Positions 11,244-45,202 of a stretch of 61,256 nt of DNA are shown here, one piece after another (the first letter of the stretch is position 1; the number at the start of each line of letters is the position of its first letter). The notes under the pieces are model-generated. The model did not search any database, was not told the DNA's origin, and saw only the letters and a program-made list of their open reading frames with translations. Location: contig JAFZLC010000045.1 in assembly GCA_017551675.1 (NCBI GenBank), positions 1 to 61,256 of the forward strand, read 5' to 3'. The stretch comes from Paludibacteraceae bacterium (lineage in GTDB: Bacteria; Bacteroidota; Bacteroidia; Bacteroidales; Paludibacteraceae). Position numbers and translations under genes: made by a program.

Positions 11244-14200
11244 TTATCGAATGAGGGTAATGCTACCTCTATCCTGACCGCTCTTGTGTAGACCACGGAA
11301 GTCGCTCTTCCAGTCGACTACATAACCGTAGACTCCACGAGGAACAGGGAGGTCGTTGTAAGTTCCATCCCATTCATCTTCTTTCGAGAAGCCTTCGAAC
11401 ATGATGGTTCCTTCACGGTTGTAGATGATGAAGTGCATATCGGTGATGAACTCAGTACCTAAGAATCTAAATACGTCGTTACGTTGGTCATCGTTTGGAG
11501 TGAAGGCGTTAGGAGCCCAGAACTTCTTCCATACGTAGACAACAGAATCACCTGTGTACTCACAACCATTCACCTTATCCACTGCAATTGCATGTACGAT
11601 GAAGGAGTCTCTGATGGCTGCATTCAAGTATTTATGTTTTACGTTTGTCTCGCCAACCTCTGTCATGCCGTCGCCAGTCTCCCAGAACCAGTTGGTGTTG
11701 GTTGGTGAGATACCAGACATGGTGATGATAGGGTTCTCCTCTAAGATGATGCGAGGCTCAACTGAGAACTCAACCTTAGGATGAGTCAATGTGTCGATTT
11801 CTCTCTCGATGGTAGTAGTACATCCGTTAGCATCCTTACCTACCAATCTAACTGTAGTCAACTCGTCGATTCTAGCTCTGATATGGTCGGATGTGTTACC
11901 AGCGACCTCACCATTGCTTGGTGAACTTGACCACTCGTAAGAGATGGCGTTACCATGAGCAGATAAGTAGACGGTGGTGCTTTCTCCTGGACAACCTCTG
12001 ACGGAGTCTTGCTTCAATTGAACGTTAGGACGTTTCAATGTGCGGATAGGAATATCCTTCGTTGCGGAACATCCGTTAGAAGAAGTACCCGTTACAGAGA
12101 TGGTGGTGTTCTCGTCGATACCTTTCGTCAAGATTCTACCAGTCTCACCTGTGCTCCATACGAATGAGGAAGCACCCTCTACGAAGATGACAGCTGTGTC
12201 ACCCTTACATACTACAGTATCACCCGATACCTTGATGTTTGGAGCAACGTTAGCTTTGACGTATACTTCCATCTCGGTGGTACAAGAACCTTTCTTACCA
12301 GCCAATGTGATTCTCGTGTTGCCTTCTGGTTGGAAGTTGAGTTTATCACCATGGACGGTCTTGTCTGCGTATGTCCATACGTAAGAGTCGGCACCATGAG
12401 CTTGAAGTGATACATCGTCGCCGATACATACTTGGTCGTTACCTGTGTAGTTGATGCTTGGACTAGGTTTCAAGTAGATAATCTTGAACTTCTCGCTTTC
12501 GCATCCGTTCTTATCCACTGCGTGAGCATAGATGTATGATGTGGTGTTGATTTCGAATGTGATAGGTTCGGAATCTTTTGTCACACCATCGTCTGAGCTA
12601 GAACCAAGACCCCAATAGTAGGTGTCGCCCGTACCAACAGCCATGATCTCAGCAAGTGCTCCACGACAGATACTGTCGTCTGTTACGATCTCAAACTGAG
12701 GAACTGGGTGGATGGTGACAGGGATGGTTACCTTCGTTGTACATCCATTCACATCTGTTCCGACTACGCTGTAGGTTCTGCTCTCATTGCCATAAAGGGT
12801 GATGCTTTGACTTGTAGCGTTGTTGCTCCACTTGTAGGCTGCAGCACCATAAGCTGTCAGAGTGACGCTCTTGCCCTCACATACGGAGGTGTTACCCTGG
12901 ATGGATACATTAGGATTTTGTAACACATTGACAGGGATGGTGAGTGAAGCGGAACAGTTGTTGGTAGTTCCTTGTACGGAGTAAACCATTGAACTGGTTG
13001 GGTAGTCGATAGATGTACCCGTCTTATTCTCTGGCTCGTGAGCCCATGTGTACTCACTAGCACCGATGACGTTGATTTGAACTTTCTCTTCCGCACATAC
13101 TTGAGAAGGAGCAGTGTAACTCAAGACTGGGTAAGGGTTGCTCTTGATTGTGTGACTCTTCTTAGTTACACAATTGCTTGCGCTTGTAGCTTCAACAACG
13201 AAGGTTTGTGTCTTCGTGATGATTGGCGTGATAGAGCTTGCAATAGCACCGTTACTCCATACATACTTCACAGCATCGCCATTGATGATGTTCAAGTTGA
13301 CTGCACCGCCCTCACAAATCTCTGTAGGTCCGTCGATGTCGAAGGATGGAAGAGAATCGATGTGGACTGTGTATTCCGTTGTGTTCTTACATCCGTTGAT
13401 GTCTTTTCCTGTTACGGTGTAGGTCTTTGTCTCCAAAGGCTTGTCAGTGATGATGCTAGCCTTAGATCCTGTGCTCCATTCGTAGCTTACACCTCCAGAA
13501 GCTGCCAACTGGATGGATGTGTTCTTGCAGACGGAAACTGGTCCGGAGATCCAGATGTTAGGAAGTTGAAGCACATTAACTTGGAAGTTGATAGAGCTCT
13601 TACATCCTGACTTGTCTCCAACGATTGTATAGTTAGTCAGATTCTCTGGCTTATCAACGAATCGGAAGGTCTTCGTTTTGAACGTATCGTTCTTCCATAC
13701 ATAAGAGTCAGCACCTTGGATGTTCATCACGATGGAGTCGCCGATACAAATCTGCTTAGGTGCGTTGTAAACCAACTCTGGATAATCTAAGTTCTTGATT
13801 GTATGAGAAGCGGTTCCAACACAACCGTATGCATCGGTTCCTGTTGCAATGAATTGCATAGTCTCGGTGATGGTAGGGTAGATGTTTTCACCCATCTCGC
13901 CAGAGCTCCAGCTATATTCATTAGCACCTTCAGCTTTCAAGTGAGCAACGCTTCCGTTACAGATGGAGTCGTCACCTGTAATGATAACCTTAGGTAACTC
14001 GTGTACAACCACCTCGAATGGATCGGTTGTGAACGAACAGTTGTTAACGTCTGTTCCTGTTACTGTATAGAAGACAGAACCAACAGTGTTCAACGACTCA
14101 GACATCTCGTTGCCGTTGATGCCATTGTTCCATTCGTAGCTTTGTGCACCTCCCGCAGACAATATAACGTTGCCGCCAACGCAGATGTCTCTGTTTCCAG

Positions 14201-17200
14201 AAATCCATACATAAGGACTAGGCAATACGCTGACACTGACTTGCTCTTGTGTCGTACAGCCGTTCTTAGTTCCTTCTACAGTGAAGGTCTTGCTGGTGGT
14301 CATCTTCTGCTCTTTGTAAGAGTTGCCTGTTGAGTTGTCTTGCCACTTGTATTCATCAGCTCCAGATGCGATGATGATCAAATCCAAGCCTTCACAAATG
14401 CTCTTAGGAGCGTCTGTTGTGATGACTGGGTAGTCTTTCTTGATAACGTTCTTCGTGAGGGTCGTCTTACAATTCTTCAAGTTCTCACCAATAACTGTGA
14501 ATGTGGTGGTCTTGTTGATGATTGGATGAATCGTATCTTTTTGTTCACCTGTGTTCACCCAAGTATATGTATTGGCATTACCCTTCACATAAAGGAGAGC
14601 TTCGTTGCCTTCGCAGACTTCATTGTCACCGAAGATCTGGAACTCAGGAAGATCGTTAACCTCCAAGACGAACTCTTCACTCCAGTTAGAACAGTTGTTA
14701 CCATCGGTACCGTATACCTTGTATGTAGTTCTCTCTGAAGGAGACTCTGTTCTCTCTTCTACTGTACGTCCGTCGTTCCAAACGTAGGTGAGACCTCCGT
14801 TGGCAGTCAATACAGAACTTTCAACATCCTTACAGATTTCGTTCTTGGTAGCCGATATCCAGATGTTAGGCAATGACATCACTGGTACGTTCACCTCGTA
14901 AGTAGCGGTACATTCACCAACCTTACCTGTGATGATGTAAGTGGTATCCTTTGTTGGAGTGTCAGAGATGACACCGCCGCTGATCAACTGATTCAACTCG
15001 TTGTAGTATTCGTTTGCACCAGAGAGTTGAATTGTGAGAGGAGAACCGTAACATACATAGTTTGGAGCATCAGATTTCAAATTAGGAATAGCCAATGCTT
15101 CTACAGTGTGGGTTGCTGAGTTCTCACAACCATTTAAGTCTTGTACTTGAACCGTGAAGGTCTTCGTCTCTGTAATGGTTGGGTTGATTTGATATACCGA
15201 TTCTCCATCAGTCCAAGAGTAGGACTTAATGATATTAGAGTTGGACAATGCGGTAAGTTGAACCACCTCGTTCTTACAGATTGCATCCTTACCATCGATA
15301 GCGATATCAGGAAGCATATTGACAACCACCTCAAACTCGGCTGAGTTCTCACAACCGTTTTCATCCTTACCGATCACATAGTATGTGGTGGTCTCTTCTG
15401 GTTTAACATCGATGTCGTCTGTTGTGGCGATGGTGTCTTTGCTGTCGAGGCTACCTGCCTTCCATACATATTTACCAGACTCGCCCTCTTTTGCATTCAA
15501 GGTGATGTAGTCTCCGATACAGATTTCATTGTCTGGATCCTTCGTGCTAATCAAGATTGAAGGCAATGACCAAACAGCTACGGAGATCTCCTCTGATGAT
15601 GTACATTGGATCTCGGTACCATACTCGGTCTTACCGTAGTTGATTGTACCGTGAACAACAAATGTCTTGTCGTCGGTCATCACCTCATTAGCGATGGTTC
15701 CGTTCACAATGTTGTATTCAGAATAGATGTCTGTTACATTCTCAGCATTCTCCCATACGAAGCTTTCTGCACCGATGACGGAGATCTTAGCGATAGATCC
15801 CTGACATACATGTTCAGGAGCCTCAATTTGCAAGTCTGGGAATGGTTTGGTTCCGATAAGAATAGAGTCTGCATTCTCACATTGGTTGATGTCAACACCA
15901 CGTACCTTCAAGTACTTCTGTCCATTGACGGTGGTGATGATCTCTTCACCAGTGGTTGAGGTTGCCCATGCATCGCTCAAATCTTTCTTCGTATACCATG
16001 TGTAGTCGAGAGCTGTACCATCCACCTTCTTAGTGATCTCTGTACCATCACAGATGATTGGCTTAGGATCGCCAAGGATCTCAACCGATGGCAATGGGTT
16101 CACCTTCACAGAGAATGACTGTGATGAGTGACAATTGTTCTTGTCGGTTGCCTTTGCTGTGAATGCATAAGTAGTGATGGCAGTAGGCTTCATCTCGTAA
16201 GTCTCGCCTTGATAATCTCTGTCAATCCAATCGTATACATATTTGTTGCTTGGATTGTTAGCTTTCGCTGTCAAAGAGATGGTCTTATCCGCACAGATGG
16301 CGTTTGGTCCGTCGATTGTGAATTCAGGAAGAGACCAGATGCTGATGGTGATAGGCAACTCAGTTGAACAGTCGTTAGATGTTGCAATCACATTGTATGA
16401 CTTCTGAGAATAGAGGTTCTCAGTTGTTCTGACAGCGCTGTTGCTATTGTTGTCAACCCAAGTCCATTCATCAGCATTGCTCAAAGTGATGGTGATTGGC
16501 TGACCTTTACATACGGTGTCTGTTCCCGTGCTTGTTGTATAAGTAGGAACTGGGAATTCCTTAACAAAGACGGTGATAGTGTCATGAGACTGACAAGAGT
16601 TGATGTCTGTTGCCTTTACAACGTAGGTGACAGAGTTCTCATCCATGCTTGCAGGCGTTACCTTTGGTACGATGATTGAAGAAGAACCTACGTTCTCGCC
16701 CGTACCTAAGATTGTCCATTCGAAGTAGTTAGCAGAACCTTTTGCCTCGATGGTAGCCTCTGTACCACGGCAGACAGGATCAACAGGATCGATGAAGAGA
16801 GCAGGGTGGTCGTAGATGATAATGTCTTTCGTAGCATTGTTCTTACAACCATGCTTGTCTTCACCTATTACTTCGTATGTTACACTACCGGAAGCAACTG
16901 GTTTAACTGTTACTTTGTCGGTTGTTGTATTAGCAGGATTCAACCATTGATATTTACCGCTGACGCCATTCTTAGCAGTTAAGACAACTTGATCGTCCAA
17001 ACAGATCTCGTTTTTGTCTGACTCAATTTCGATATCAGGCAAAGACCATACGTAGATGGTGGTGTCGATTCTGCTTGTACACTTGCCGACGGTACCCTTT
17101 ACCCAGATGGTTTGAGGTTCCTCGATATGAGTGATCTCAACTTCAGAGTAGTGCTCGTTGGCAATGCTCCACTCGTATGAGCAGTTGTCTGGACCAGAAA

Positions 17201-20200
17201 CGGTAATCAACTTGTCTTCACCGAAACATACGGTGTCACCCTTGTCGATTGTCATGCTGATAGCAGGAAGTTCGATGATATTAACAATGATGCTGTCTTT
17301 CTTCTTACATCCTTCTGCAGACATACCGACAACTCTGTATTTTTTATCGTTGTTAAGCGTTTCAGCGTAACGAGTGTCAGTCTTGAATCCAGTACCCCAA
17401 TCGTAGCTCAAACCAGGGTTGTTGGCTTGGATGACAGCTTCGCTACCTTTACATACAGGTCCGTTGCTTGTCAATGAGAAGATAGGGTCGTTGTACATGT
17501 GAACGGTGATATCCTTCGTGCCGACACAATTGTTTTGGTCGGTACCCATGACAGTGAATGTGGTACGTTCGTTGAGGCTATTTGTCTTGTAGTCTGATCC
17601 TGTACCTAATACATTCTCATCACCTTTCAAATACCATGAGTAGGTGGAAGCCGTTGTACTGCTAGCCGTTAAGAGAGCCGTTGTATTTTTACAAATAGTG
17701 GTGTCTCTAGCGGTGATGTTAGGCAATTCCATTACACCGATGGTGAATGAGCTCTTGGTTTCACAACCACCCTCTACCGTAGTGGCAACTACAGAGAAGT
17801 CGGTTGTCTTCGTAATCTTTCTGGTGATAGAAGGTTGGTCTTCACTGAGCAATCCGTTCCATACGAAGGTACAAGGCATCTCATTACCCTTAGGATCAAG
17901 AACTTCTGCGGTGACAGTGACATCGTTGCCCTTACAAGCAAAGGCTGGATTGTCTAACTGAAGTTTCGCATAATCGTACTTCTTAATGAAGATATCTTCA
18001 ACCGTAGTGTCGCATCCGAAGCTGTTCGTTCCGATAACACTGAATACTGTATCAGATGTGATGACAGGACGGTATGTTTGAGCTCTAGAAACAACGTTTC
18101 CGTTTTTATCCATCCAAATGTATGAAAGTGAACTGTTGTCAGCTTCCAATACAGCGGTTTCGTTCTCGCAATAACCCTCTTTGTGAGAGACGGAGAATCT
18201 AGGTGTTTCGTTGATGGAGATTGTGATTTCATCCCAATTCTTACATCCGTTAGCGTCAATACCCCAAACAGATACGTGCTGTTGTGTACTGATGTTAATC
18301 ATACCCATCGTATTGTTTGCAGTATAGGATTCGTCGCCCTCCCATAAGTAAGAGACACCTCCTGTAACAACCAATTCAAGGTCTGTGAACTTACATACGG
18401 AGTAGTTAGGAGAGTTTTCAATCTTGATGTTAGGTAAGCTCCAAGTAGCAACGGTCACGATCGTATTGGATACGCATCCGTCTACGTTAGCTTCAACATA
18501 GTAGGATTGGTCTTTCTCCAACATTCCACTCTTGCAAGTATCTGCGGTTGAAAGCAACTGACCAGCCTCATTGTTCAATCTCCATGTGTAGGTTGCATGA
18601 GGGTTGTTACCTCTAAGAACGGTTGAGTCGCCCTCGCAAATAAATTGAGCATATTGCAAAGCCATGGTTGGGAACTCCTTGATGCCTACCACGATGGAAT
18701 TATCTTTCACACACTTGGTGGAAGGATCCATAGCTGAAACTGTGATTGTTGTAGGTTCATCAATTGTGTAAGAGTTGCTGAACAATGATTGATATCCCTT
18801 GTTCTCCCAGTCGTATGTTAAGTTGTAATTGTCTGTGAAGACAACCACGTCTTGACCTTTACAAACTTTGCTTTCGCTAGACAAATTGAAGGTTGGAAGC
18901 TCGTTGACAACCAATAGATGTTCAGCTTGGTTCTTACAACCATATTGGTCTTCTGCTATAACCCTGTAAGTCGTGTTTGTAGTAGGACTTGGAGATACGG
19001 TCTTATCCGTAGAGAATGCTGTTGTGTTATCTCCCGCATACCATTCATACGTTTGCATGTTGTCGGTTGCAGTAAGATTAGCAGGAGTGTTGATACATAC
19101 GGCTTTGTCTCCAAATATCTCAATGTAAGGCAACTCTCTTGTAGCGATGTTGTATGTCTCGCTTGATGTACATGTGATAGAGCCGTCGTATTGAGGATAT
19201 GAGAAGCTAACCTTAGCCGTGTATTTGGTATTGTTTACATTGACAGTCTCGTTGAGTGTGTAATCTGTACCCAACTCTCTGTTCGCTGCGTTGAACCACT
19301 GGATGGTGGCGTTGGCAACAGGAACGATGTTGATGGTAGCCTTACCGCCCTTACATACAGAGTCAGTCTTGCTAGCCACTGTGATGGTAGGGTACTCTTT
19401 CACTCTGACGAAGAGTGTCATGATAGAGTCACACAAATTAGAGTTGGTAGCTTTCACTGTGATCTCCTTGTCGGCAGTCAGATTATTTACCTGAAGAAGT
19501 TCTCCAGATGTCTTTTGACCATCGACAGTCCATTCGAATGATAAGCTTTCAGCAGAGAGGTCGCTCTTAGCATAGAGGGTAGTCTGACCACCGACACATA
19601 CGATGGTGTCTCCCGAAATGCTGAAACGAGGTCGAGGGTTGACAGTGATGGTGAGGTTGTCTTTATTGATACAACCAACGTTGTCCATACCCCAGACAGT
19701 CACTTGTTTCTCTTTGGTTATGTTCTCTAATGTCTTGGTGTCATTGTTCTCTAAGAATGTAGTCTCAGAATCCATATCCCATCTGTATTTAACACCTCCG
19801 GTAGCGGAGAGTTGAATGTCACCATCGTAACATACATCAGTCTTTCCACGATCGATGGCGATGTTAGGAAGTGGAGTATAGCTGATGGTGATAGATTGGG
19901 AGCTAGAACACTTGTTGTTGGTACCAACGACAGAGAACTCTTTCACTGACGTGATGGCGTCAGAGATGAATGTGTCTTTGTGAACACCCGTTAAGTTCCA
20001 TACATAAGTGGTTATGCCACTTGTGATGGTATCTGTAGCGTAGAGAGTATCTTTCTCGTTGTAACATACGATGTCTTTACCGTGGATGGTAATCTCTGGA
20101 TTAGGCTTCCATCCGATGGTGATGGTGTCGTTGGATGTACATCCGTTGGCATCTCTTGCAGTGACAACGAACTCTTTGTTGGCATCTCTGGTGATAGCAG

Positions 20201-29200: not shown

Positions 29201-32200
29201 GGTTGTCTTTACATACATCAGCAGCAGTAGGGATGAAAGTAGGAACATCGTATGTGCTTACTGTGAATGAAGTCTCTCCGTAACATCCACTAGCGTTGCT
29301 ACCTTTTACTTTATAAACTGTTTCTTGGTTGACGGTTGGACTATAGGATATACCACCACCCACGGAAACATTGTTTGCAAACCATTGATAATCATTATTG
29401 ACAGCACCTGAAGCATTCAACTGGAAGGTTTTTCCTTTACATACACTTCCACTTCCATTCTGTGTTTCGTTGATGAGAAGGGTAGGTTTGTCGTTTACTG
29501 TTACCTTGTATTCGGCAGATGCAGAACATCCGACAACACCAGCAGCCTCTAATGTCGTAATGGTAACTTGTGCAGTTGCAAAACGATCGGTCAATGCAGG
29601 TTTTAAATAAGCCTGGTTTGTTGTACTAGTGTCGTTGCTCCATTGGTAAGAAACATTGCTTTGACTGCTTGTCGCAACCAATAGAACGGAGTCGCCCTGA
29701 CAGATACTGTTTACACCAGTCGCGCTGGTTACAGTTACAGTTGGAAGTTCCTTCACTTCAACTGTGATGGTTTGTTTTGTTGAACAACCGCCTTCGATAC
29801 GGATAGTGGCTTCAAATGTATAAACTTTTGCTATATCCAGTTTCTTCGTGTTCAATTGGTCGTGACCGACGAATGGTTGGTAAGCACCTTTGTTCCATGA
29901 GATGTAAACCTTGCTAAGATCTTGCTCGGTGGTGGTTGCAGTAATGAGGACAGAGTCGCCACGACAGATTGTTTTTTTGTCGACTTCCAATTTTAGATTA
30001 GGCTCTTTCGCAACTACGATGGTCACACTGTCAGGGTCGGAAACACAACCGCTCGCATTTGTACCTGTCACGGAGTATTTGTTGGTTGTATTCCAATCCA
30101 TATTTGAGATTTGGTATGTGTTCGTTTTAACACTTGTTGGCTCGCCGTTTACAGACCAACTCCATTGGTCGCTCATCATATTGCCACTAGTAGAGCTGGC
30201 AACCAACTCTTCCGTTTCACCTTTACAATATTGAGGTTTGACGTTGGACAATTTGATGGTTGGCTTTTGCACATACGAAATCACTTGCTCCGCTTGTGTG
30301 GTTGGACATCCGTTGGCACCTTTCGCTGTTAATGTTATTTTATCAGACTCAGTAACACCACTGAGGATGACAACTTTAGGATCTGAAATCGATTTCTGTG
30401 TGATGGTTGCACCCTTTTCGCTGGTCCAAACGAAGTCGCTTGCACCACCGATGGCTTTCAATTCCAATGTTCCACCTTCACAAATCTCACCTTTACTGTC
30501 GATACCGATAGACTCGGTTGAGTATACATCGATGCTAATTTCTCCTTGTGCTTGACAACCTGATGCAGTAGTAGCAGTGACACTATAGTTCTGCTTTCCT
30601 GTAATTGGTCCCGTGGTGAGTGTGCTGGTCGTGTTAGACTGTCCTACCCATTCCCAAGAGATGTCAGATTGTACATTGCTATTGGTGTTCTCTGCAGTGA
30701 TGGTTGTTGAACTATTGTAACAAACAACGCTTGGAGAAGCTGTGAGGAAAACAACTGGAGTCTCTTCCGCTAAGATGGAGACGGTTGCTGTGCTTTTACA
30801 TAGATTACTGTTGTAACCCGTTACAGTGAATGTGACATCTTCGTTGATTTGTGGATTGATGCTACCACATTCTGTACAAGCATAATCTCTAGTATCTCCG
30901 TTGATGGTATATTTCCATGTGTAAGAGGTAACGTCTTCAGCATCTGCAGTGATTCTGACAGATGAACCTTTACATATGCGTGAGTTGTTCAAAGGCTCTG
31001 TGATTTGAATCTCTGGAGCAGGAATACCACTGATCGTCTTTTGTCCTTCGCCTTTACAACCTTTTGAGTCGTATCCGGAAACACTATAGGTGCTTGGCCC
31101 ATTAGGTACGGATTCTATTAATAAGGTGTCTTTGTTAAGTGTGGTATTGTTATTCCAAATGTATCTATGTGAGACACCACCTTTGGCAACCAACTGCATG
31201 GAAGCCCCCTCACATTTTGAATCTTCACCTACTATATATATATTAGGTGGCATCTGTACAGTTAGAGGATAGGTGGACTTAGTCGTACAATTTTCCATAT
31301 CGGCAACTAATTCAACATTAAATGGAGTTGAAACTTTCTCCATGTCGATGTTTTGCATGTTGAAGGTAGTGCCTGTTTGTGTCAAGTCTTGTCCGTCGTA
31401 GTTGTAAGACCATGTATAAGTTGTATTATTAGCGTTGACACTTGGATCAACACGAAGAGTTAGATCCAAACCGTTGCAGACATAGTCTTTGTTGTTTGCG
31501 TCATTTTTGATGACAGGGAACTCTTTCGCTCTGATTGTTTCAATGTCTGTGTTACTTTCACATTTGTGTTCATCTGATGCAATTACGTGGAACACGGTTG
31601 TCTGTGCCAATGGTAATTGTATGACGTCTCCTGTTGCGTCACCAATCTTCGTACCTAATGTGTCATAAAGAGTCCAACTGTATTCTGCGATTAGATCGTT
31701 GCCAGAGCCATCTTTACCAATGGATGCAGATGCTGTGGCAATTTCGTTTTTACAATATCTGTCTTTCTCGGTTGTGATGGCGACTGTAGGAAGTCCATAG
31801 AAACTAAGGTCGGCGGTTGTTTGTCCGTAACATCCGTTAGAACCTTTTGCTTTGACTACATATGTGAAGTCGCCTGCAACACTAGATCTTGCTGTGATTG
31901 TATTGCGATTTCCTGATGGGTTGGCAATCGTGGCACTATCAAGCGTAGACCAGACAATGTCGTTACCCCTTTTTGTTCCCCATGTGTATTTCTCAGTTGC
32001 TCCAGCACCGCTTGCTGTCAGTGTGATGGAGTTCTTTGCACAGACACCAGCCTCGTGACCAGTGATTGCCAATGCGGCTGAAGGTAAAATGGAAACACCT
32101 TTTCTGAGGGTGGACGTACATTCTGTTGTGAGTCCCTCGTTTTTATAAACGATGGTACCATTGAGAGTATAGTAGGTCATACCAGTTCCAGAAGGTGAGT

Positions 32201-35200
32201 CGGTTAATGTGCTTGAGGTTCCGACAATTTCATTGTCATTGTTGCGCCATTCATATTTTCTCTGATCGATTTGAGAATTATATTGGGTGATGGACAATTT
32301 TCCAGTCAAAGAAAGAGCTTCCCCCTCGCAAATCGTTGTGTCTCTAATGGTAATGGTAGGGTATGGCCTTACTGCCACATGCACTTTTGCAGTATTTGAT
32401 TTACAGTTATATCCATTTATACCATATACTTTGTAGTCCGTACTAGAACCAACGGTGACGGTATGTACTTGGTTCTTGGTTCCATCATTCCATGTGAATT
32501 CAGTTATGTCGCCCGTGTCATCGTGTGCGGTAAGAGTAACTGTTTCATTTTCGCAGATTAAGTATCTTTCTGCTGTTGCTGTAATGGTTGCAGGTTTATG
32601 GACGGTTACTGTGAAAGGAACTGTTCGAGAACATCCTTTGTAATTAGCTTTGGCAAAGGCTTTTACATACAATGTTAATGGTCCTTCTTCTGTCGCGACG
32701 TGCACATCGTACACGTTTGTGGCACTCTCGTGAGCTTCAAGAGTAGGATCTGGTCCCCAATAATAGCTTTCTGCACCCGAAGCCACCATGTTTACTTTGT
32801 CATTCAAGCAGACATGTCCAGCAATGGGAGCCCTATCGGTGATGGTGATGCTTGGTGCACTGTTCACTGTGATGTTGTATTCTGCGTCTTTCGAACAAAC
32901 AATGTCACCATGCGTTTCGTAAGCTGTCACATAGTATGTTTTAGTGGTGACATTAGGCACGTCTGTCATGGAGAGTTTCTTGTCATTGCTATAAACAGGA
33001 TTGTTACCACCTGTCCATACAGAGCAAGAATCTGCACCAGTTAAAGTGAGTGTGATTGATTTTCCTTCACATATAGGACCAGTTGCTGAGCTGCTGATTT
33101 GAGGATTTGGTACACTGTGAACCTGAATTTGCGTAGACAGAGTGCTGGTACACTCATTGCTGTTGGTTCCTTGAATGGAAAGATTGTAGGTTCCGTTTGC
33201 TGTGAATGGAATGGTAACTTGCTTGTTTTGGAAGTTCGTTCCATCATTAAGTGTCCATACATATCTGTCGTCGTTGTCAGCACCCTCTGCAGTGTAGAGA
33301 TAGTCACTTCCGACGCAGACGTTTTTAGGTCCATTGATTGTTAGTTTTGGAGCCTCTTTCTTATATATGTCTACAGAGTCTATGTCGAAACATTCATTTT
33401 CAGAAATACAGATGGCGTAATATCTCGTGGATTCTGTGACAATAGGAGAGTAGGCGTTTGATGCGGAAAGTTCAGTTGTCTTTTTGATTTGCTGCTTGTT
33501 TTCGTCTTTCCATTCGAAGTAGCATTCCATGTTACTGCTGGCATGCAATGAAGCCTCGTCGCCTTCACAAATCTCCAAGTAGCGGATCAGGTTGCCATTT
33601 CCATCGGTTTTGAATTTCATTCCTTCACCGGTAAGTGTGATGGAAGGCTTTTCCTTCACGGTTATGTTGTGCTCGCCCGTGTATACGCAAGTACGAGGAT
33701 TTCCATTTCCAGCAAACTCGTCACTCTCGATTTGCAATGTGTATGTTGCGGTTCCGTTGGTAGGAGTTGCCATGTAGGCAACAGCACCCGCTCCAGTAGT
33801 GACGGAGTTGAGTATGTTGTCTTTCTCGTCTTTCCAGAAATATCTAAATGGGTTGCCAACGCTATTCTTATAAGCTCCGGCTGAAGATGTTAGGTAGGCA
33901 GAAGTATTTAGTCTCAACTCTGTAGACTCGCCGAAACAGATGTGGTCAGGACCTAAGATGTCTACTTTAGGACGACCTACAACGGTCACTTGTTTGTTGA
34001 TTGTCTTTCTACAGTCGTTTTTAGTGATGATTAACAACTCAACATCGTATGTTTTAGTTTGTCCAGGATTACAAGGCAACAAAACGGTAACACTATCACC
34101 TTGTATTTGCACTGGGTTTCCGTTGTTGTCTGTGTAAGACCAAATTCGGTTGACAATCTCGTCAGGTTCAACCATCTCTCCGTTGTGGTTGATTTTGGTG
34201 ATGACTGTTTTGTCTATTAACAACACTTCGTTGTAACAAGCTATTTCGGCCTCGAAATCAAGGTTGAATGGATTTTTCGTCAGGGTGAACTGGTCGGTTG
34301 TTTTGGTACATTCAGAACCACTGTTGACAAGGTTTGGATCGTTGTCGTTACTGCTCATGGTACAGGTGTATGTAGTACCTTCAGAGACTTGATCCGCATG
34401 GATTCTTGCTACGTTTGGTTGATAATAATTAGGTATGGTGATAGGACTTGACCAACTATAGTTCTCAAATCCTTCAGGTGCTGTTAATTCAATGTCAGCT
34501 CCATCTCCACAGTTCTTGACGATTACCTCGAAAGGTTTTGTCTCAGCTGTGAAATATCCGTAAGAACGGTGGTAGTTGGCTGCATATGCTTGTCTGAAAC
34601 CGTGTTTTGAATTATCGTTACATTTTGGACAATAGGACTGATTGCTTGCGTTTAAGTTCAAGTCTCCATCTTTTATATATGAACCACAGTTTCTACATAT
34701 CCATATTTTTTCAACACAGTCGTGGTTGATGATTTCAACAGTGATTTCTTGGCCAACATAGTCTCTAAGGTCGTAGGAAATGGTGGTCCAATCTTTGAAA
34801 TATGTTTTTTCCAGGTAATCGGCAGGCAAGTAGGCTTGTTGACAATAAGCATCGCCATGTACAGCAATCTCTTCACTTTCCAAACATGTACGGATGGTGC
34901 TACCAGTTGTGTTACAGTTGTAACATGTGTGGGCCAGATTAGGATCGGTGTTTTCGAGATTTGCATAGATCAGTGTATCCTTCTTGTTTGTTTTGTAAGT
35001 ACACTCTATACAAACATTTTGACTTTCAATTCTAGTTTTATGGACTGTTTCACCCTCTGCACAAATCTTCTTTGTTGTGTATTGTGCACATTTGTAGTAG
35101 TATGTGTCCCAGATATCACTTCCTTTGTTTTCGAACTGTAGACATTCTCCGTCTTCGTTGAGGTCAGTACAGTTTGCGTAATTTCTTACTAAGGAGTTGT

Positions 35201-36263
35201 TTCTTACGTCAAAATAGTAGAATCCGTTTCCATCTTTATAGTATCTTCTTTTTGTGTATTGTCTTTGGAAGTAAGTTTGACCATTTTGCACATATGAAGG
35301 GAGATAATAATATCCTTCGTCGTTTTCATATCGTATACATCTGTCTAACACTGTTTTTTCCCTCGTACACACAAACTCATCATAAGGGACAACAATGTCT
35401 CTCACCTCAGAACGTAAACAACGGAAGTTCTTCTTTTCGTCGGAGTTTTTACACTCTTCGCAGATTCCGTTTTCGTTTTCGGGACAGGACTCGCTATGCT
35501 CTATAAATCCATAGCTGTCAGGCAACGTTTGCTCACACACTTTACAATAGGTGACGTGGTCGGAAATCGTTTTTGTACTCGCTTTTGTTAGTCCTGTTTC
35601 GCCATCGATGACACTGGAGTTACATAGGATGTTTCCATTTTGATCGTATATGCGAACGGCAAAAGGAGGTAGATCGTCTGTTTTATGCCTTCCGTTGAAA
35701 TGAGGGTCGTGAAGGAGTGCGGCGTACTTGTAGGTCAATAGCGTGGAGTTCTCTCCGACGGTGAATTTATAGACCATTCTCTCTGCCATTGCACGTCGGT
35801 ATGTTCCGCCTATATAATCTCGGTCGACAGCTCGAATTTCTGATTCTTCGCTTGATCCGATTCGGACTGCATAGGTACTACCATCAGGGACTTGTTTCAA
35901 GTTATCGCAGGCGATGTTTTTATCTATACTGGAGGAACTCATGATTTGAAAGTCTCCATATATTGTTCCAGTGATCTGAGCAGTTCTGACTGACCAATTG
36001 TCTGTTGCAGAGGTTGTTTGGGTGTTGTATGAGTTCGAAATCACAAATGGACTCGCATCATTGGAAAAATCAGTTGGTCCATAGTATCCGTAATATCTAG
36101 TCCAACCCTCAAATGTTCCTTTCTCGAATCCTAAGTTGGGGGAGTCGGAATTGACTTTGCTAGTTTGTGCATACGAGGTCTGCACCCCTACACTGAAAAG
36201 CAATAGGTTGGTAAATAGTAGTAGAATAATATGTCGCAGTCTAGTTTGTATACTTTTGCTCAT
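11244..36263 (-). CDS. 8339-residue exported multi-Ig protein with type B T9SS (gliding-motility) C-terminal domain
   Basis: One uninterrupted frame of 25 kb. A signal peptide (hydrophobic residues about 10-27) is predicted to be cut after SYA (32), leaving N-terminal Gln. Residues about 40-235 and 490-590 look like a split jelly-roll domain seen at the N terminus of Bacteroidetes motility-type proteins (LGFEKGTFEGW, YDLRDYVGQEI, DC, YGYFTAE). A Cys-rich segment is inserted in it. From about 590 to 8150 there are roughly 90 Ig-like domains of 70-90 residues. Each typically has an ICEG-type Cys near the start, a YxW core and an NGC-type Cys near the end, so one disulfide per domain is likely. 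A PKD-like domain precedes the last 95 residues (APNAFTPNDDQRNDVF ... WDGTYNDLPVPRGVYGY), the type B signal for T9SS. A surface fibre or adhesin role is inferred; no catalytic domain was seen. Confidence 0.93.
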   Translation of the reverse strand: MSKSIQTRLRHIILLLFTNLLLFSVGVQTSYAQTSKVNSDSPNLGFEKGTFEGWTRYYGYYGPTDFSNDASPFVISNSYNTQTTSATDNWSVRTAQITGTIYGDFQIMSSSSIDKNIACDNLKQVPDGSTYAVRIGSSEESEIRAVDRDYIGGTYRRAMAERMVYKFTVGENSTLLTYKYAALLHDPHFNGRHKTDDLPPFAVRIYDQNGNILCNSSVIDGETGLTKASTKTISDHVTYCKVCEQTLPDSYGFIEHSESCPENENGICEECKNSDEKKNFRCLRSEVRDIVVPYDEFVCTREKTVLDRCIRYENDEGYYYLPSYVQNGQTYFQRQYTKRRYYKDGNGFYYFDVRNNSLVRNYANCTDLNEDGECLQFENKGSDIWDTYYYKCAQYTTKKICAEGETVHKTRIESQNVCIECTYKTNKKDTLIYANLENTDPNLAHTCYNCNTTGSTIRTCLESEEIAVHGDAYCQQAYLPADYLEKTYFKDWTTISYDLRDYVGQEITVEIINHDCVEKIWICRNCGSYIKDGDLNLNASNQSYCPKCNDNSKHGFRQAYAANYHRSYGYFTAETKPFEVIVKNCGDGADIELTAPEGFENYSWSSPITIPNYYQPNVARIHADQVSEGTTYTCTMSSNDNDPNLVNSGSECTKTTDQFTLTKNPFNLDFEAEIACYNEVLLIDKTVITKINHNGEMVEPDEIVNRIWSYTDNNGNPVQIQGDSVTVLLPCNPGQTKTYDVELLIITKNDCRKTINKQVTVVGRPKVDILGPDHICFGESTELRLNTSAYLTSSAGAYKNSVGNPFRYFWKDEKDNILNSVTTGAGAVAYMATPTNGTATYTLQIESDEFAGNGNPRTCVYTGEHNITVKEKPSITLTGEGMKFKTDGNGNLIRYLEICEGDEASLHASSNMECYFEWKDENKQQIKKTTELSASNAYSPIVTESTRYYAICISENECFDIDSVDIYKKEAPKLTINGPKNVCVGSDYLYTAEGADNDDRYVWTLNDGTNFQNKQVTIPFTANGTYNLSIQGTNSNECTSTLSTQIQVHSVPNPQISSSATGPICEGKSITLTLTGADSCSVWTGGNNPVYSNDKKLSMTDVPNVTTKTYYVTAYETHGDIVCSKDAEYNITVNSAPSITITDRAPIAGHVCLNDKVNMVASGAESYYWGPDPTLEAHESATNVYDVHVATEEGPLTLYVKAFAKANYKGCSRTVPFTVTVHKPATITATAERYLICENETVTLTAHDDTGDITEFTWNDGTKNQVHTVTVGSSTDYKVYGINGYNCKSNTAKVHVAVRPYPTITIRDTTICEGEALSLTGKLSITQYNSQIDQRKYEWRNNDNEIVGTSSTLTDSPSGTGMTYYTLNGTIVYKNEGLTTECTSTLRKGVSILPSAALAITGHEAGVCAKNSITLTASGAGATEKYTWGTKRGNDIVWSTLDSATIANPSGNRNTITARSSVAGDFTYVVKAKGSNGCYGQTTADLSFYGLPTVAITTEKDRYCKNEIATASASIGKDGSGNDLIAEYSWTLYDTLGTKIGDATGDVIQLPLAQTTVFHVIASDEHKCESNTDIETIRAKEFPVIKNDANNKDYVCNGLDLTLRVDPSVNANNTTYTWSYNYDGQDLTQTGTTFNMQNIDMEKVSTPFNVELVADMENCTTKSTYPLTVQMPPNIYIVGEDSKCEGASMQLVAKGGVSHRYIWNNNTTLNKDTLLIESVPNGPSTYSVSGYDSKGCKGEGQKTISGIPAPEIQITEPLNNSRICKGSSVRITADAEDVTSYTWKYTINGDTRDYACTECGSINPQINEDVTFTVTGYNSNLCKSTATVSILAEETPVVFLTASPSVVCYNSSTTITAENTNSNVQSDISWEWVGQSNTTSTLTTGPITGKQNYSVTATTASGCQAQGEISIDVYSTESIGIDSKGEICEGGTLELKAIGGASDFVWTSEKGATITQKSISDPKVVILSGVTESDKITLTAKGANGCPTTQAEQVISYVQKPTIKLSNVKPQYCKGETEELVASSTSGNMMSDQWSWSVNGEPTSVKTNTYQISNMDWNTTNKYSVTGTNASGCVSDPDSVTIVVAKEPNLKLEVDKKTICRGDSVLITATTTEQDLSKVYISWNKGAYQPFVGHDQLNTKKLDIAKVYTFEATIRIEGGCSTKQTITVEVKELPTVTVTSATGVNSICQGDSVLLVATSSQSNVSYQWSNDTSTTNQAYLKPALTDRFATAQVTITTLEAAGVVGCSASAEYKVTVNDKPTLLINETQNGSGSVCKGKTFQLNASGAVNNDYQWFANNVSVGGGISYSPTVNQETVYKVKGSNASGCYGETSFTVSTYDVPTFIPTAADVCKDNQATINISGTENTTYKITWGNKNETVTSDNNGNLTFTTTDKLSNSQNFRIEGSKQYNQQTTCTSEAQTLMVTVLELPYIKISSNPITKEICQDDRITLTATGAGIYDPSAPTGAGTYTWSARTANAPTLTTSSDGQSEASLTGTSAGTFKYKVVGFNGACRGEDSISVTVHEKPEVTISGPTSACPGESITLTASGASTYIWSENKTSNKISGNQVKPTIQEPITYSVEGTNDYGCTANAQNTHSITLLSLPQPTWTEPHVCSGDDVTVTINAQSGTIDKIDWQDGTQATNNTRTFTDVTADKTYNIKVYSGNCYKDSFLTIKVEDKPVISFDGKQKACSGDSYTLNASATNSNIQWQWVRNNHRESLTGTSINMTLSTEQQSEMITYIATATTNDSYACTSKDSVVVTVYAKPTNEITGTTTICEGGLAPLQSMIEFKTYSWIDKADPDFVLNTTKNPVFSPSDTTTYKLTVTDNNGCSTESEKTVNVIKKPTFDFSYTPVCEDENATISVVSDHSDLYNYEWNYNNITNGGTSITIPSIKESTTVRLTASNKDLTSCQTTKDYLATVNKKPVFDIITDANDNAICSGNSINISASNTTSYRYEWKYKKVGTDVDNFASNLPSFSWKGNNTGNTAETYIFTAQAKTSEAADACKSSEDVIVTVNPAATIKVKQSSAACEGNTVEVYVDKATSTTTQYSWLDANKQEIGYTEESNSFYISAETEEISGYVVGWNSYNCPDTASYNIKKAAKPTIIVSGNTPICSGEKPSNITVDAGGQNVNWYLGENTSGEYLGNSTNIPTANMKPLTSNQFITIHTTNNDQNNATCTADTTILIEVKPRPSISITANKSEVCPNEDVTFTADVSTGATITKWTEWITNTNTQDTAVTSDMLTVHKAENRKFTYGVIASLDECPDTAKISFTVFPAPAVSIYTEKNPICNGNTVQISTDGEFNSFEWFTVESQTVGGVTTEVETSIPSATSSSLTDEPTSTTKYKLVVTNDINCKGFDTLTVLVSEKPIVEITADAVCPKSNAVLKVSNNSTAAEYQWASSGTYDATTKQWTSTETITSRKGFNVTAWSADRVCSVDKTIYVDVKKEPSASILIDGQYTNGATVASCRKELQFAIESASNTVIDNSTIAWTKKESSSATETAIANGNGVTTITDTPAEDGSYFVSFQDEQTKCQTKIEQKINLYPEMTISLGNDKEICSGKDVRVSATTSGASAESFTWTIKKKSDDSDYSNIIYEDNAKSSITIKDVTEELYVYATGTSQYHCSGYKSNTIKITTKNNPVITIEPAIPTVCSGGDITITASGSGTIKWDNSSSNPITLNNVTSNITRRVTLTDGECQSTRDVEVTVNANPVINITGLSGYCKGGSTTLTATESNGNTLTYSWQKGSSWNNNQTPISNESTIEAYSTGSYIVKGVDENNCSATQKFEVAELEKPTISEITADKALCLDSTIILTAKGSDSYTYEWYKTEGNTNTLLGTSKNLEVTATSTEETYYVKAFENNSIPGGVVVCESNPVPYSVRGIEAPSWNFSYSEVCENGNAMISIINESVSNAEYTWETSETGTANNTSYSFVIGKSASFSVTGTSNGCSSTLDTTINSKELPVINDIDAPASVCVNSPIQLVADCSDLNAQYQWTPSPSSTNKDTATYTPSTVGTFSYTLTVTGANGCNATKAGTFEVNELPNIVLSGNTEYCLGTPASVGITSNSDIESIQWFKYDGTKPDHKGDIVGSGDKNYKLTEVVSEEENYLVVISNGTCENSKYPITIKPFPVSSITTAGNKTICEGDSTKINITGDGTCFVKINDNWEQITNGTRTFRPTATTTYELKIEKNGCEYFDYLTITVVTPPSVTINEQINGNVNICKGESLTLTAASPSTTNFKWENSLGENASISVNPLTTTVYEVIADPNGCKNSTKFTVNVLDIPTVEFTGDRYACAGGSATFGIKNPDETNYSYIWEDGNANVERTITMEQSNYKLDLTVTNKNSNCHKDTFYTVYLEANPTIALKKASDNTDVTNQELNVCLGSTLEDIVITSTTDPLHPQTPYEWININGDSYIMNKTLSGVKVENNTKFTARVLSEHGCATEADITITSKKAPIASITGKENACNNDDVTLVAKASEGVEPYTYKWTGKSHDGEVFTIDVDNKDTMTAKLLQELKESYTFTVTVTDANNCDNSQVVSHTIKMDTTPTIILRATVADVCVGKTAEISASGAGAFGTYEWVTRDNENLGTGDVIYPTIENDIEIKAIGRTIEGCPGSSDYIPVNKIDNPVISISGLKDICVGGNLTVTLSSNNANDKFEWLSDSETGNYVNIIESASRTLAPEITTTYFFQVSNSTGCVTDSSLTVKVNPLPEVQINGYAADGSSYICLNDSITLQANGGSSDYSYIWKTNTNDANLASVKKDTSTLSDIKPSITNLYTVIVTDANGCIDSTNYTVNVNKLPEIELTGKDAACSNETVLLTISSLSGNISSPSYNWGDVNPSKNAMTSNVVITKDSTFTVTVTDGNECSSSATHFVKMIPDPDFSISTREDICEKTSVTLNVTSNTSDTYSYTWPSNGSVSGTSWTENGYNKAALTPYNYTVTAEIAGTYKSTSYVCQKEKSISVTVHELPEVFISGDGFLCENSTNAAQLTANGPDGTIYLWQEGETWSDQKNPIASSTSIGVTPSTSTYYIIKGTTAVNDTLSCVNYSAPFMVYRAQTPEFSLPTQNVGVCHGNDVKLDANEVANYTLTWSNGAINTKSITVTNVVEDTAYTVTASTDECTATKRFVILVKENPVIRVDEAPEYVCINDSARIKVSSNDNATITWIQRNDNVAQGSLTIKEKMSAKELFSFKGTISYEVEGQSNATVCQSTVDTIIDIKPLPIVMIQSENAICYGDTITMNTEIIETAAPYTYEWSDTTVGVTHLDLTTSRLTVYPKRYTSYSVKIHDAFGCADSTTHEIAVNDLPIFNVVSEDQTVCDGLNTKLIADKPTLLYNWGTGEFSSKKEYFTPAITRDANKEFVVTARDANGCTSNDTITIGWKPNPEITIHGKDIVCYNEKDTLYATDTITSGITTYVWNLTGVHKDTFISDAITSVKEFSVVGTNNKCSSSQSITISYTPLPNIAIDRGKTDVCYDGDIQLSATGGVKYRWDMDSETTFLENNDTKTLENITKEKQVTVWGMDNVGCINKDNLTITVNPRPRFSISGDTIVCVGGQTTLYAKSDLSAESLSFEWTVDGQKTSGELLQVNNLTADKEITVKATNSNLCDSIMTLFVRVKEYPTITVASKTDSVCKGGKATINIVPVANATIQWFNAANRELGTDYTLNETVNVNNTKYTAKVSFSYPQYDGSITCTSSETYNIATRELPYIEIFGDKAVCINTPANLTATDNMQTYEWYAGDNTTAFSTDKTVSPSPTTNTTYRVIAEDQYGCKNQAEHLLVVNELPTFNLSSESKVCKGQDVVVFTDNYNLTYDWENKGYQSLFSNSYTIDEPTTITVSAMDPSTKCVKDNSIVVGIKEFPTMALQYAQFICEGDSTVLRGNNPHATYTWRLNNEAGQLLSTADTCKSGMLEKDQSYYVEANVDGCVSNTIVTVATWSLPNIKIENSPNYSVCKFTDLELVVTGGVSYLWEGDESYTANNTMGMINISTQQHVSVWGIDANGCKNWDEITISINETPRFSVSHKEGYCENETAVLEADNSSLSYIWMDKNGNVVSRAQTYRPVITSDTVFSVIGTNSFGCDTTVEDIFIKKYDYAKLQLDNPAFACKGNDVTVTAEVLDPKGNEMPCTFVWNGLLSEDQPSITRKITKTTDFSVVATTVEGGCETKSSFTIGVMELPNITARDTTICKNTTALLTASSTTASTYSWYLKGDENVLGTGSDYKTNSLNERTTFTVMGTDQNNCVGTKDITVHMYNDPIFSLTSNGPVCKGSEAVIQANNPGLSYDWGTGFKTDTRYAETLNNDKKYRVVGMSAEGCKKKDSIIVNIIELPAISMTIDKGDTVCFGEDKLITVSGPDNCSYEWSIANEHYSEVEITHIEEPQTIWVKGTVGKCTSRIDTTIYVWSLPDIEIESDKNEICLDDQVVLTAKNGVSGKYQWLNPANTTTDKVTVKPVASGSVTYEVIGEDKHGCKNNATKDIIIYDHPALFIDPVDPVCRGTEATIEAKGSANYFEWTILGTGENVGSSSIIVPKVTPASMDENSVTYVVKATDINSCQSHDTITVFVKEFPVPTYTTSTGTDTVCKGQPITITLSNADEWTWVDNNSNSAVRTTENLYSQKSYNVIATSNDCSTELPITISIWSLPEFTIDGPNAICADKTISLTAKANNPSNKYVYDWIDRDYQGETYEMKPTAITTYAFTAKATDKNNCHSSQSFSVKVNPLPSVEILGDPKPIICDGTEITKKVDGTALDYTWYTKKDLSDAWATSTTGEEIITTVNGQKYLKVRGVDINQCENADSILIGTKPFPDLQIEAPEHVCQGSIAKISVIGAESFVWENAENVTDIYSEYNIVNGTIANEVMTDDKTFVVHGTINYGKTEYGTEIQCTSSEEISVAVWSLPSILISTKDPDNEICIGDYITLNAKEGESGKYVWKAGSLDSKDTIATTDDIDVKPEETTTYYVIGKDENGCENSAEFEVVVNMLPDIAIDGKDAICKNEVVQLTALSNSNIIKSYSWTDGESVYQINPTITETKTFTVQVQDLNGCENSATHTVEALAIPNLKSDAPNYVCYGSPLTIQLSGANEYYNELNQLISGGVISDTPTKDTTYIITGKVGECTATYEVNVPVMSLPNIWISATKNEICKDVESSVLTANGGLTYVWNDGRTVEERTESPSERTTYKVYGTDGNNCSNWSEEFVLEVNDLPEFQIFGDNEVCEGNEALLYVKGNANTYTWVNTGEQKDTIHPIINKTTTFTVIGENLKNCKTTLTKNVIKKDYPVITTDAPKSICEGLDLIIIASGADEYKWQDNSTGNSYKEQKMTTSKTFTVEGTKNGCTTQEQVSVSVLPSPYVWISGNRDICVGGNVILSAGGAQSYEWNNGINGNEMSESLNTVGSVFYTVTGTDVNNCSFTTDPFEVVVHELPKVIITGDDSICNGSVAHLKAEGANEYSWSSGEMGENIYPTITETMQFIATGTDAYGCVGTASHTIKNLDYPELVYNAPKQICIGDSIVMNIQGADSYVWKNDTFKTKTFRFVDKPENLTNYTIVGDKSGCKSSINFQVNVLQLPNIWISGPVSVCKNTSIQLAASGGVSYEWSTGSKASIITDKPLETKTYTVTGKDINGCKNTTEYTVHIDSLPSFDIDGPTEICEGGAVNLNIINGDAVKYVWSNGAIASSITPIITKTQTFVVEATSASNCVTKKSHTIKSNPYPVLSYTAPSQVCAEEKVQINVIGASEYTWAHEPENKTGTSIDYPTSSMVYSVQGTTNNCSASLTIPVNVLQNPNVSIQGNTSVCEGKSVTLTAYGAAAYKWSNNATSQSITLYGNESRTYSVVGTDVNGCTTKVTIPVTIHPVPQFEIVTDDSICRGALAEIMAVGTGDTYYWGLGSSSDDGVTKDSEPITFEINTTSYIYAHAVDKNGCESEKFKIIYLKPSPSINYTGNDQVCIGDDVSLQAHGADSYVWTYADKTVHGDKLNFQPEGNTRITLAGKKGSCTTEMEVYVKANVAPNIKVSGDTVVCKGDTAVIFVEGASSFVWSTGETGRILTKGIDENTTISVTGTSSNGCSATKDIPIRTLKRPNVQLKQDSVRGCPGESTTVYLSAHGNAISYEWSSSPSNGEVAGNTSDHIRARIDELTTVRLVGKDANGCTTTIEREIDTLTHPKVEFSVEPRIILEENPIITMSGISPTNTNWFWETGDGMTEVGETNVKHKYLNAAIRDSFIVHAIAVDKVNGCEYTGDSVVYVWKKFWAPNAFTPNDDQRNDVFRFLGTEFITDMHFIIYNREGTIMFEGFSKEDEWDGTYNDLPVPRGVYGYVVDWKSDFRGLHKSGQDRGSITLIR
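11247..11531 (-). other. Type B T9SS C-terminal domain of the giant protein
   Basis: Residues about 8245-8339 match the gliding-motility-associated C-terminal family: FWAPNAFTPNDD, FIIYNREGTIMFEG, WDGTYNDLPVPRGVYGYVV and a final GSITLIR. By family knowledge this directs secretion through T9SS. Type B domains such as that of SprB need PorP/SprF-like partners, none of which is in this window. Confidence 0.88.
12245..22130 (-). repeat. Three-domain (A-B-C) higher-order repeat, about 14 units
   Basis: In the C-terminal 40 percent of the giant protein the Ig-like domains recur in a fixed order with a period of about 215-250 residues (650-740 bp). Domain A opens with LPNIWISG-like sequence and closes with D.NGC. 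Domain B opens with LP.F.I.G...IC. Domain C opens with YP.L...AP..VC and closes with a short C-terminal strand, often VWS or VLQ, before the next A. Fourteen A-type openings were counted by eye, from LPEVQINGYAADG (about 22.1 kb) to NPNVSIQGNTSVC (about 12.9 kb). In the last four units (about 12.2-14.9 kb) the spacing is close to 650 bp. Earlier domains do not show this order clearly. Confidence 0.75.
34586..35558 (-). other. Cysteine-rich insertion with zinc-ribbon-like CxxC pairs and calcium-loop-like motifs
   Basis: Residues about 236-560 of the giant protein hold more than 20 cysteines. CxxC pairs occur at about 240/243 (CKVC), 268/271 (CEEC), 418/421 (CIEC), 447/450 (CYNC), 523/526 (CRNC) and 545/548 (CPKC). 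The last two pairs, in CRNCGSYIKDG and SYCPKCND, look like a classical zinc ribbon. Asp/Asn-rich loops such as DLNEDGEC and PENENGIC resemble calcium-binding loops. A pair of similar Tyr-rich stretches (NDEGYYYL, DGNGFYYF) lies between. The segment interrupts the N-terminal jelly-roll-like domain, whose strands resume at DWTTISYDLRDYVGQ. The metal assignment is inferred; in an oxidising compartment the pairs could instead be disulfides. Confidence 0.6.
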
Positions 36264-36560: not shown

Positions 36561-36633
36561 GGCGGATTAGTGTAGTGGCCTAGCACGTAGCTCTCTCACG
36601 GCTTAGACCCGGGTTCGATTCCCGGATCCGCTG
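36561..36633 (+). tRNA. tRNA-Glu (anticodon CTC)
   Basis: The 73-base cloverleaf has acceptor arms GGCGGAT / ATCCGCT (first pair G-U), a short D stem GTG/CAC, an anticodon loop CTCTCAC with CTC at 36595-36597, and a perfect T stem CCGGG/CCCGG with loop TTCGATT. CCA is not encoded. The CTCTCACGG stretch is the usual tRNA-Glu signature. The anticodon stem is weak: TAGCT against GGCTT gives three standard pairs, one G-U and an apparent U-U at the outer end. It decodes GAG. Confidence 0.9.
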
Positions 36634-36635
36634 CT

Positions 36636-36674: not shown

Positions 36675-36917
36675 ATCTTTGTTCGAAAATGAAAATTGAT
36701 TTTTTTAGTATGTGTGTTTTGTTTTTCTTAGGGTTGATTCTTGATAGATGATATGCTAAGAAAGGCGAAGCTTTTTGATATAATTCACTGGATTTCTTGC
36801 TTAATTTTATTACAATTTCTCGTTTGGGAATGTAAATTCAAAAGGTTATCAACTCACAATTTGTATTAATTTTTGTCAAAATGGTGAATGTATAAAGTTC
36901 GCCTTAAATATTTCAGA

Positions 36918-37913
36918 ATGAAAAATAATAAGTTTATGAATCGTTGGCTTTTTCTTCCATTCGTTGTTTTAGTGTTGTTGTCATGTTCGTCCCCCAAAAA
37001 AGAGACACAGAAGCAACCGTCACAAGAAACTTCTTCAATTGTGATAACCAGACCGTCTTTCTCTTCGGATTCTGCTTTTTTATTTATCAAACAACAGTGC
37101 GAGTTTGGCCCGCGCGTTCCTAATACTTCTGCCCACGACAAGTGTGCGGAATATTTGGTCGAAAAATTAAAATCTTATGGATTGATTGTCACGACACAAA
37201 AGTATACTGCAACAGCTTATGACCAAACGGTTTTGAAAGGTACAAATATCATCGGACAACTTCATCCTGAAATGGACAAAAGAATTGTTTTGTTCTCTCA
37301 TTGGGACTCTCGTCATGTGTGTGATAATGATAATCTAGAGAATAGAAATCAGCCGGTGATGGGTGCTAACGATGGTGCTAGTGGTGTGGCTGTCTTGTTG
37401 GAGGTGGCTCGCCAACTACAGATAGAGAATGATTCTGTAGGAGTGGATATCGTCTTCTTGGATTTGGAAGATTATGGTCAGCCATCTTTCGAAACAGACG
37501 AGAAACAGGATACTTGGTGCTTGGGTGCTCAATATCTGGCTCGAAATCCTTACTACGACAAACGTCCTCGGAAAGGTATCTTGTTGGATATGGTGGGCGC
37601 TTCATCTCCATATTTCGGATTTGATCAGATATCATTGAATTATGCGGAGCCTCTTTTGCAAGAAGTCTGGTCTGCAGCTCATTCACTAGGATTCTCTTCT
37701 TCGTTCATTCCTGATATTTCTGGCGCTGTTTTAGACGATCATTATTATCTTAACACGATTGCTGCGATTCCTACGATCGACATCATAGATTATAATCAAA
37801 ATAGAGGATTCCCATCTACATGGCATACTGTAAACGACACGCCTGATAACATCGATAAAAAATCATTGCAAATGGTGGGTGAGGTGCTGCTAAGCGTGCT
37901 AAGAACAAAATGA
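36918..37913 (+). CDS. Glutaminyl-peptide cyclotransferase-like M28-family lipoprotein
   Basis: With the ATG at 36918 the protein has 331 residues. The lipobox LLSC at Cys23 follows a hydrophobic run, so it should be a periplasm-facing lipoprotein. Starts at 36888 and 36936 are also possible; 36918 gives the most typical signal peptide. The M28/QC fold is shown by FGPRVPNTSAHDKC, LFSHWDSRHV, GANDGASGVAVLLE, IVFLDLEDYG, LLDMVG, DHYYLN and STWHTVNDTPDNID, including the His/Asp/Glu zinc ligands. Glutaminyl cyclases turn N-terminal Gln of exported proteins into pyroglutamate. An aminopeptidase of the same fold is the alternative, but the DLED segment and the length fit bacterial cyclases. Its stop overlaps the flippase start by 4 bases. 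Confidence 0.85.
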   Translation: MKNNKFMNRWLFLPFVVLVLLSCSSPKKETQKQPSQETSSIVITRPSFSSDSAFLFIKQQCEFGPRVPNTSAHDKCAEYLVEKLKSYGLIVTTQKYTATAYDQTVLKGTNIIGQLHPEMDKRIVLFSHWDSRHVCDNDNLENRNQPVMGANDGASGVAVLLEVARQLQIENDSVGVDIVFLDLEDYGQPSFETDEKQDTWCLGAQYLARNPYYDKRPRKGILLDMVGASSPYFGFDQISLNYAEPLLQEVWSAAHSLGFSSSFIPDISGAVLDDHYYLNTIAAIPTIDIIDYNQNRGFPSTWHTVNDTPDNIDKKSLQMVGEVLLSVLRTK

Positions 37914-39169: not shown

Positions 39170-39178
39170 TGTTTTGTT

Positions 39179-41441: not shown

Positions 41442-41450
41442 GAGATAAGT

Positions 41451-42491: not shown

Positions 42492-42498
42492 TCGTAGT

Positions 42499-45187: not shown

Positions 45188-45202
45188 CAGATAAACTACC
45201 TA

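Follow-up and report, generated by a model that had tools for sequence, protein, structure and literature searches.

A matched pair of giant GhpA-like proteins with type IX secretion signals in a Paludibacteraceae genome: candidate partner strands of one surface fibre

The stretch of DNA analysed here (the window, 61,256 nucleotides) comprises bases 1-61256 of contig C44 in a 3.3-Mb, 58-contig genome of a Paludibacteraceae bacterium; the genomes are drafts throughout. Its minus strand carries gene A, which encodes a giant protein of 91 immunoglobulin (Ig)-like repeats with a sorting signal for the type IX secretion system (T9SS), and contig C37 of the same genome carries a second giant, B (8011 residues). 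A and B are a giant resembling GhpA, the heptameric grappling hook of Aureispira, in the form of a matched pair: both hold 91 repeats, and their sequences change jointly, block by block. It is proposed, with a probability of roughly 0.48, that A and B are exported by the T9SS and run as partner strands in a single long surface fibre of GhpA type, a co-assembly that we infer from comparison of their genes. The first-pass annotation of the window was sound on A's frame, repeats and type B signal; it described a single giant gene, whereas A is one of two such genes in the genome, and the fixed repeat number and the co-variation of A with B had likewise been overlooked.

Gene A is a single frame that opens with ATG and closes with one stop, in agreement with the uninterrupted 8339 codons first described. 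By Pfam, the protein ends in CHU_C (PF13585), and both of its halves match Ig_7 (PF19081; E 4.4e-43 and 1.6e-92). The C-terminus also reaches 52.3 bits with TIGR04131, the NCBIfam model of the T9SS type B sorting domain, against a cut-off of 35; the earlier assignment of a gliding-motility-type C-terminal domain is thereby upheld. According to an iterated profile, the stretch from a PKD-like domain to CHU_C holds 91 Ig repeats, and a further, weak Ig-like match lies N-terminal of the PKD-like domain; the earlier count of about 90 is thus correct. Cysteines number 222, most commonly spaced by 25 and 26 residues. The model of the N-terminal tip region is beta-rich and partly confident (residues 233-473 mostly at low confidence), and Pfam PKD_4 is matched by 9 of 23 orthologous or paralogous N-termini, A's own being among those without a match. 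Tandem Repeats Finder reports only one short array in the window, outside gene A; full-length orthologues of A occur in 11 further genomes; and the ratio of nonsynonymous to synonymous substitution rates (dN/dS) is 0.05-0.33 in every segment of four close pairs compared. A is therefore neither a chance frame nor a collapsed repeat.

The distribution of the giants was followed with the N-terminal 651 residues of A as the query against 200 genomes of the family, 89 of which matched. Among the matches listed, A and B are both full length in 12 of the 16 genomes of the genus, lying in tandem on one contig in nine of the 12 and on separate contigs in three (G000, G155 and G091). Both giants are cut by contig ends in G151; A is cut in G139, with B not seen among the matches listed, and no giant is found among those from G147 and G159 (88-89% complete). 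Another genus, represented by G080, encodes a 10468-residue giant of the same kind with 123 repeat-profile hits (L091-L093, G080:C28:13503-44909). Thirteen named loci belong to Paludibacteraceae or Bacteroidales metagenome-assembled genomes, and their sources, where stated, are goat omasum, yak cecum and rumen, water buffalo rumen, sheep rumen, and horse faeces.

Across this set, bead number does not vary. The iterated profile, trained on the same 24 giants, finds exactly 91 repeats from the PKD-like domain to CHU_C in all 24 full-length proteins (A and B of 12 genomes), which span 7792-8449 residues and in which A and B are only 28-36% identical; because repeat spacings lie between 62 and 138 residues, a hidden or doubled repeat is hardly possible. 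When seven-repeat windows were slid along five A and five B proteins, 0-6 of 85 left the diagonal for orthologues, and between A and B the figure was 0-22 of 85. A three-domain super-repeat holds 82 of the 91 domains in phase, and none of 2000 shuffles was equally strong (mean of 10 proteins). The sorting domains of A and B are mutually similar (63-71%). A short sibling of about 1520 residues, present in six of six genomes examined from four genera, shares the architecture of the giants (tip, PKD-like domain, repeats, CHU_C), with a tip 38-47% identical to A's, a sorting domain 49-62% identical to A's or B's, and repeats that best match giant repeats 76-91 (three siblings tested); it differs in having 13 repeats rather than 91 and a shuttle gene directly after it (PorP/SprF by search in G000 and G155, by likeness in three more, and cut off in G054).

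The two genes also diverge together. Between the sister genomes G103 and G027, nucleotide identity is mostly 88-100% through A repeat 65 and B repeat 63 (the exceptions, A repeats 25, 26, and 62, stand at 85, 67, and 82%), drops to 69-82% over repeats 66-91 of A and to 70-85% over repeats 64-91 of B, and returns to 91-92% in CHU_C; synonymous divergence (dS) is about 0.8-1.2 in repeats 61-91, 0.02-0.19 in the tip and repeats 1-60, and 0.24-0.31 in CHU_C, and eight flanking genes are 87-97% identical. Between G143 and G113, the tips of A and B are both diverged, at 72 and 73% identity where the rest stands near 90%, and in the three genomes with A and B on separate contigs the divergence profiles of the two, taken in 13-repeat blocks, nearly coincide. 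Over 66 genome pairs, the residual divergences of A and B correlate at lag 0 with r 0.33 (0.18 after quadratic correction for overall divergence), and only one of 90 lags, +1, is as high. Permutation of genome labels within clades gave no value as high in 2000, and clade 2 alone gave 2/5040, 2/720, 2/720, and 2/120 for four choices of genomes, identity counted. Array span in A correlates with that in B at r 0.966, and at r 0.92 over 11 contrasts, whereas one control family shows the reverse trend. Tips and bases differ from the middle in conservation in A and B alike. As A-B identity within a genome is not above A-B identity across genomes, gene conversion between A and B does not explain the co-divergence.

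Several observations weigh against the proposal of partner strands. G080 shows one giant, a second not being seen among the matches listed. Between G143 and G113, the arrays of A and B are uncorrelated (r 0.10, a value reached at 20 of 90 shifts), so that only their tips diverge together. The register is fixed to within a few domains and no finer, adjacent lags being nearly equal and 2 to 8 of 90 lags reaching lag 0 in clade-2 subsets. Deep contrasts carry the span correlation: its sign-flip p is 0.03, rising to 0.13 once the two largest are removed. Changes in the length of single domains are not clearly concentrated on the diagonal, and a block test yields p 0.11. Other large CHU_C families of the genus are likewise near-constant in length and the short sibling keeps its 13 repeats in all six genomes, so a constant count does not set A and B apart, and architecture in this genus is fixed as a rule. 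These constancies favour a rival in which A and B are independent single-chain or homo-oligomeric T9SS adhesins, their count frozen since diverged repeats hardly recombine and their parallel divergence imposed by the same ligands, shuttle, or recombination regime at the same positions (tip and base). The gene's lack of DNA-level tandem repeats and the distinct conservation of tip and base in both proteins suit it as well; nevertheless, the parallel pressure must then strike A and B in matching blocks within a given genome pair, although they lie on different contigs, and one sister pair shifts at nearly the same repeats in A and B. Independent adhesins are a possible, though less likely, explanation. 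An assembly artefact or a decaying gene, which the draft state of the assemblies might suggest, is vanishingly improbable in the face of 24 full-length frames with 91 repeats each and a dN/dS well below 1.

Two further rivals turn on machinery and function. The first-pass annotation had raised the possible absence of T9SS genes and called for a search for SprF/PorP-like partners; the source genome encodes SprA and a porP-gldK-gldL-gldM-gldN cluster, and its CHU_C matches number 26 and its PorP/SprF matches 18, the latter in part fragments and none of them on contig C44. A might be a SprB-type mobile gliding adhesin that moves on GldJKN as its track, with a disulfide-linked SprF-like shuttle pulling it. 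Homologues of GldB, GldD, and GldJ occur in all 16 genomes of the genus (above the curated cut-off in 3, 16, and 0 of them, with the GldJ of G147 in two pieces), GldK homologues occur in the genus too, GldK keeps the cysteine aligned with PorK Cys356, and the shuttle-like genes that follow the sibling (L138:5574-6554, L140, L141, L142, and L143) have a conserved tail cysteine (..[KR][YF]PCP..) in five of five complete copies, which might link to GldK; a track-linked form is thus conceivable. Against this, SprF's link to the track, a Cys-X-Cys tail, appears in none of the 10 own PorP/SprF-like tails read (of the 18 matches) and in none of nine copies of the C37 shuttle. A survey of oral bacteria reports GldJ in only three genera (PMC11705866); in a sample of 198 genomes from the order, GldJ has matches in 156, 93 of them above the curated cut-off, a level that it does not reach in this genus, and hence provides no argument for gliding in this genus specifically. 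With no SprB repeat among the Pfam matches of A either, SprB-type identity and gliding are weakly supported, and this explanation is unlikely. A true ixotrophic grappling hook for catching prey cells, favoured by an array homologous to GhpA's and a C-terminal signal that aligns with GhpA's, is more improbable still: the tip has no sequence match to GhpA (a profile of 23 N-termini does not find it at E 10, a result that also counts against partner strands of GhpA type), and no sign of predation was seen, although no search for the type VI secretion system (T6SS), which Aureispira is described as using together with its hooks, was made.

Should A and B indeed be partner strands, export would proceed through SprA with a PorP/SprF-like shuttle, followed by anchoring. 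Orphan type B cargo can share a single shuttle (PMC12618676), and shuttles adjoining peptidoglycan-binding PorE-like genes may anchor static cargo (PMC9143113); the C37 shuttle has an OmpA-domain neighbour. The 91 Ig beads of A may form a rod of about 0.3 µm, a fibre of several hundred nanometres being plausible, with the N-terminal tip outermost by analogy with GhpA. B would supply a strand of the same 91 beads, and co-divergence suggests that the two most likely pack side by side and in register, tip to tip and base to base, in one multi-stranded GhpA-like filament. Such a fibre would most likely hold other cells, or plant or host surfaces, and would more likely be anchored and static than a gliding adhesin driven along a track. 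A stricter version, in which A and B are obligate partners in a hetero-oligomeric filament, have 91 beads each for tip-to-base register, and undergo joint block replacement at tip- or base-type swaps, is offered more tentatively.

Giant repeat adhesins are often regarded as loose, changeable strings. Here, bead number is exact across deep divergence in two paralogues, and both genes change jointly and block-wise; if A and B co-assemble, they would be a multi-stranded fibre's genetic ruler and would offer a way to study how a match is kept between two genes of 25 kb. Arrays of GhpA type, described from a marine predator, are thereby placed in relatives from herbivore rumen and hindgut; in the literature consulted, no GhpA-like appendage built from two genes was listed, nor any in gut commensals.

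Table 1. Features of gene A and its divergent neighbour, in window coordinates.
Feature	Position	Strand	Basis or remark
Giant gene A, 8339 codons	11244..36263	-	One frame from ATG to a single stop
Sec-type leader, residues 1-32, putative cleavage near SYA^Q	36168..36263	-	Read by eye
N-terminal tip region, residues 33-587, cysteine-rich	34503..36167	-	
Weak Ig-like match, residues 588-665	34269..34502	-	Repeat profile
PKD-like domain, residues 666-763	33975..34268	-	Structure comparison
91 Ig_7 repeats, residues 764-8250, three-domain super-repeat	11514..33974	-	Pfam, iterated repeat profile
Proximal repeats 79-91, portion most resembling the 13-repeat sibling	11514..14429	-	
CHU_C / type B T9SS sorting domain, residues 8250-8337	11253..11516	-	PF13585, TIGR04131
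Divergent M28 peptidase gene	36888..37913	+	Adjoins A here and in G151, G139, G155, G091, G143, G113

No claim is made that the fibre includes the product of the M28 peptidase gene, which is separated from A by a tRNA-Glu (ctc) gene (36561-36634, plus strand). Also adjoining A is a polysaccharide cluster (37910-45820, plus strand) with Wzx-like and Wzy-like proteins, glycosyltransferases, and a sugar transferase; a Wzx homologue lies beside A in G151, G139, and G091 as well. Two plus-strand frames run off the window: one of 1523 residues (2-4573, open at the window start), with a weak partial MBG match, is probably another surface protein, and one of 1656 residues (56289-61256, open at the window end) matches DUF11 and, weakly, Glyco_hydro_8. 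The minus strand at 11247-23246 matches the phage tail family phrog_3995 (E 2.7e-22), probably via the Ig-like beads. Near the C37 giant lies a gene for an ion-transport domain protein (Ion_trans, PKD_channel; L017:5853-6641, minus strand), and the porP operon of G113 adjoins recA (L130:7281-9692), which suggests a clade 1 rearrangement with breakpoints between A and B and between porP and recA.

Among known systems, GhlA of Litorilinea aerophila is likewise a bead-on-string giant forming a multi-stranded hook filament, but one with DUF11 beads, a trimer model, and a host in the Chloroflexota. SprB of Flavobacterium johnsoniae, a protein of 6497 residues and about 200 nm, shares with A the character of a giant type B T9SS adhesin with, presumably in A's case, a PorP/SprF-type shuttle; the first-pass annotation compared A with it, but as the best comparison it is not supported, since the SprB-repeat family is absent from the Pfam matches of A at E 0.01, no Cys-X-Cys shuttle tail was found in the proteins examined, and the repeats match GhpA. 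GhpA of Aureispira sp. CCB-QB1 (PDB 9flp, 9fls, 9flu, 9flv, 9flw, 9flx, 9fly, and 9g8b) is the closest solved relative of the repeats (E=1e-203), whereas two further Ig_7/CHU_C proteins of the source genome, run as controls, show no match to it. A and GhpA are both giant T9SS proteins with homologous Ig-bead arrays and a CHU_C-like C-terminus that can be aligned; the Ig/PKD part of A's N-terminal model resembles GhpA fragments in structure comparison, and in parts of GhpA repeat scores also recur every three domains (249 residues), although the phase of the three-domain unit is not significantly shared. GhpA is smaller, at 5898 residues and about 43 Ig matches compared with 8339 residues and 91 repeats in A, and a single protein builds its heptamer, whereas two diverged proteins occur here.
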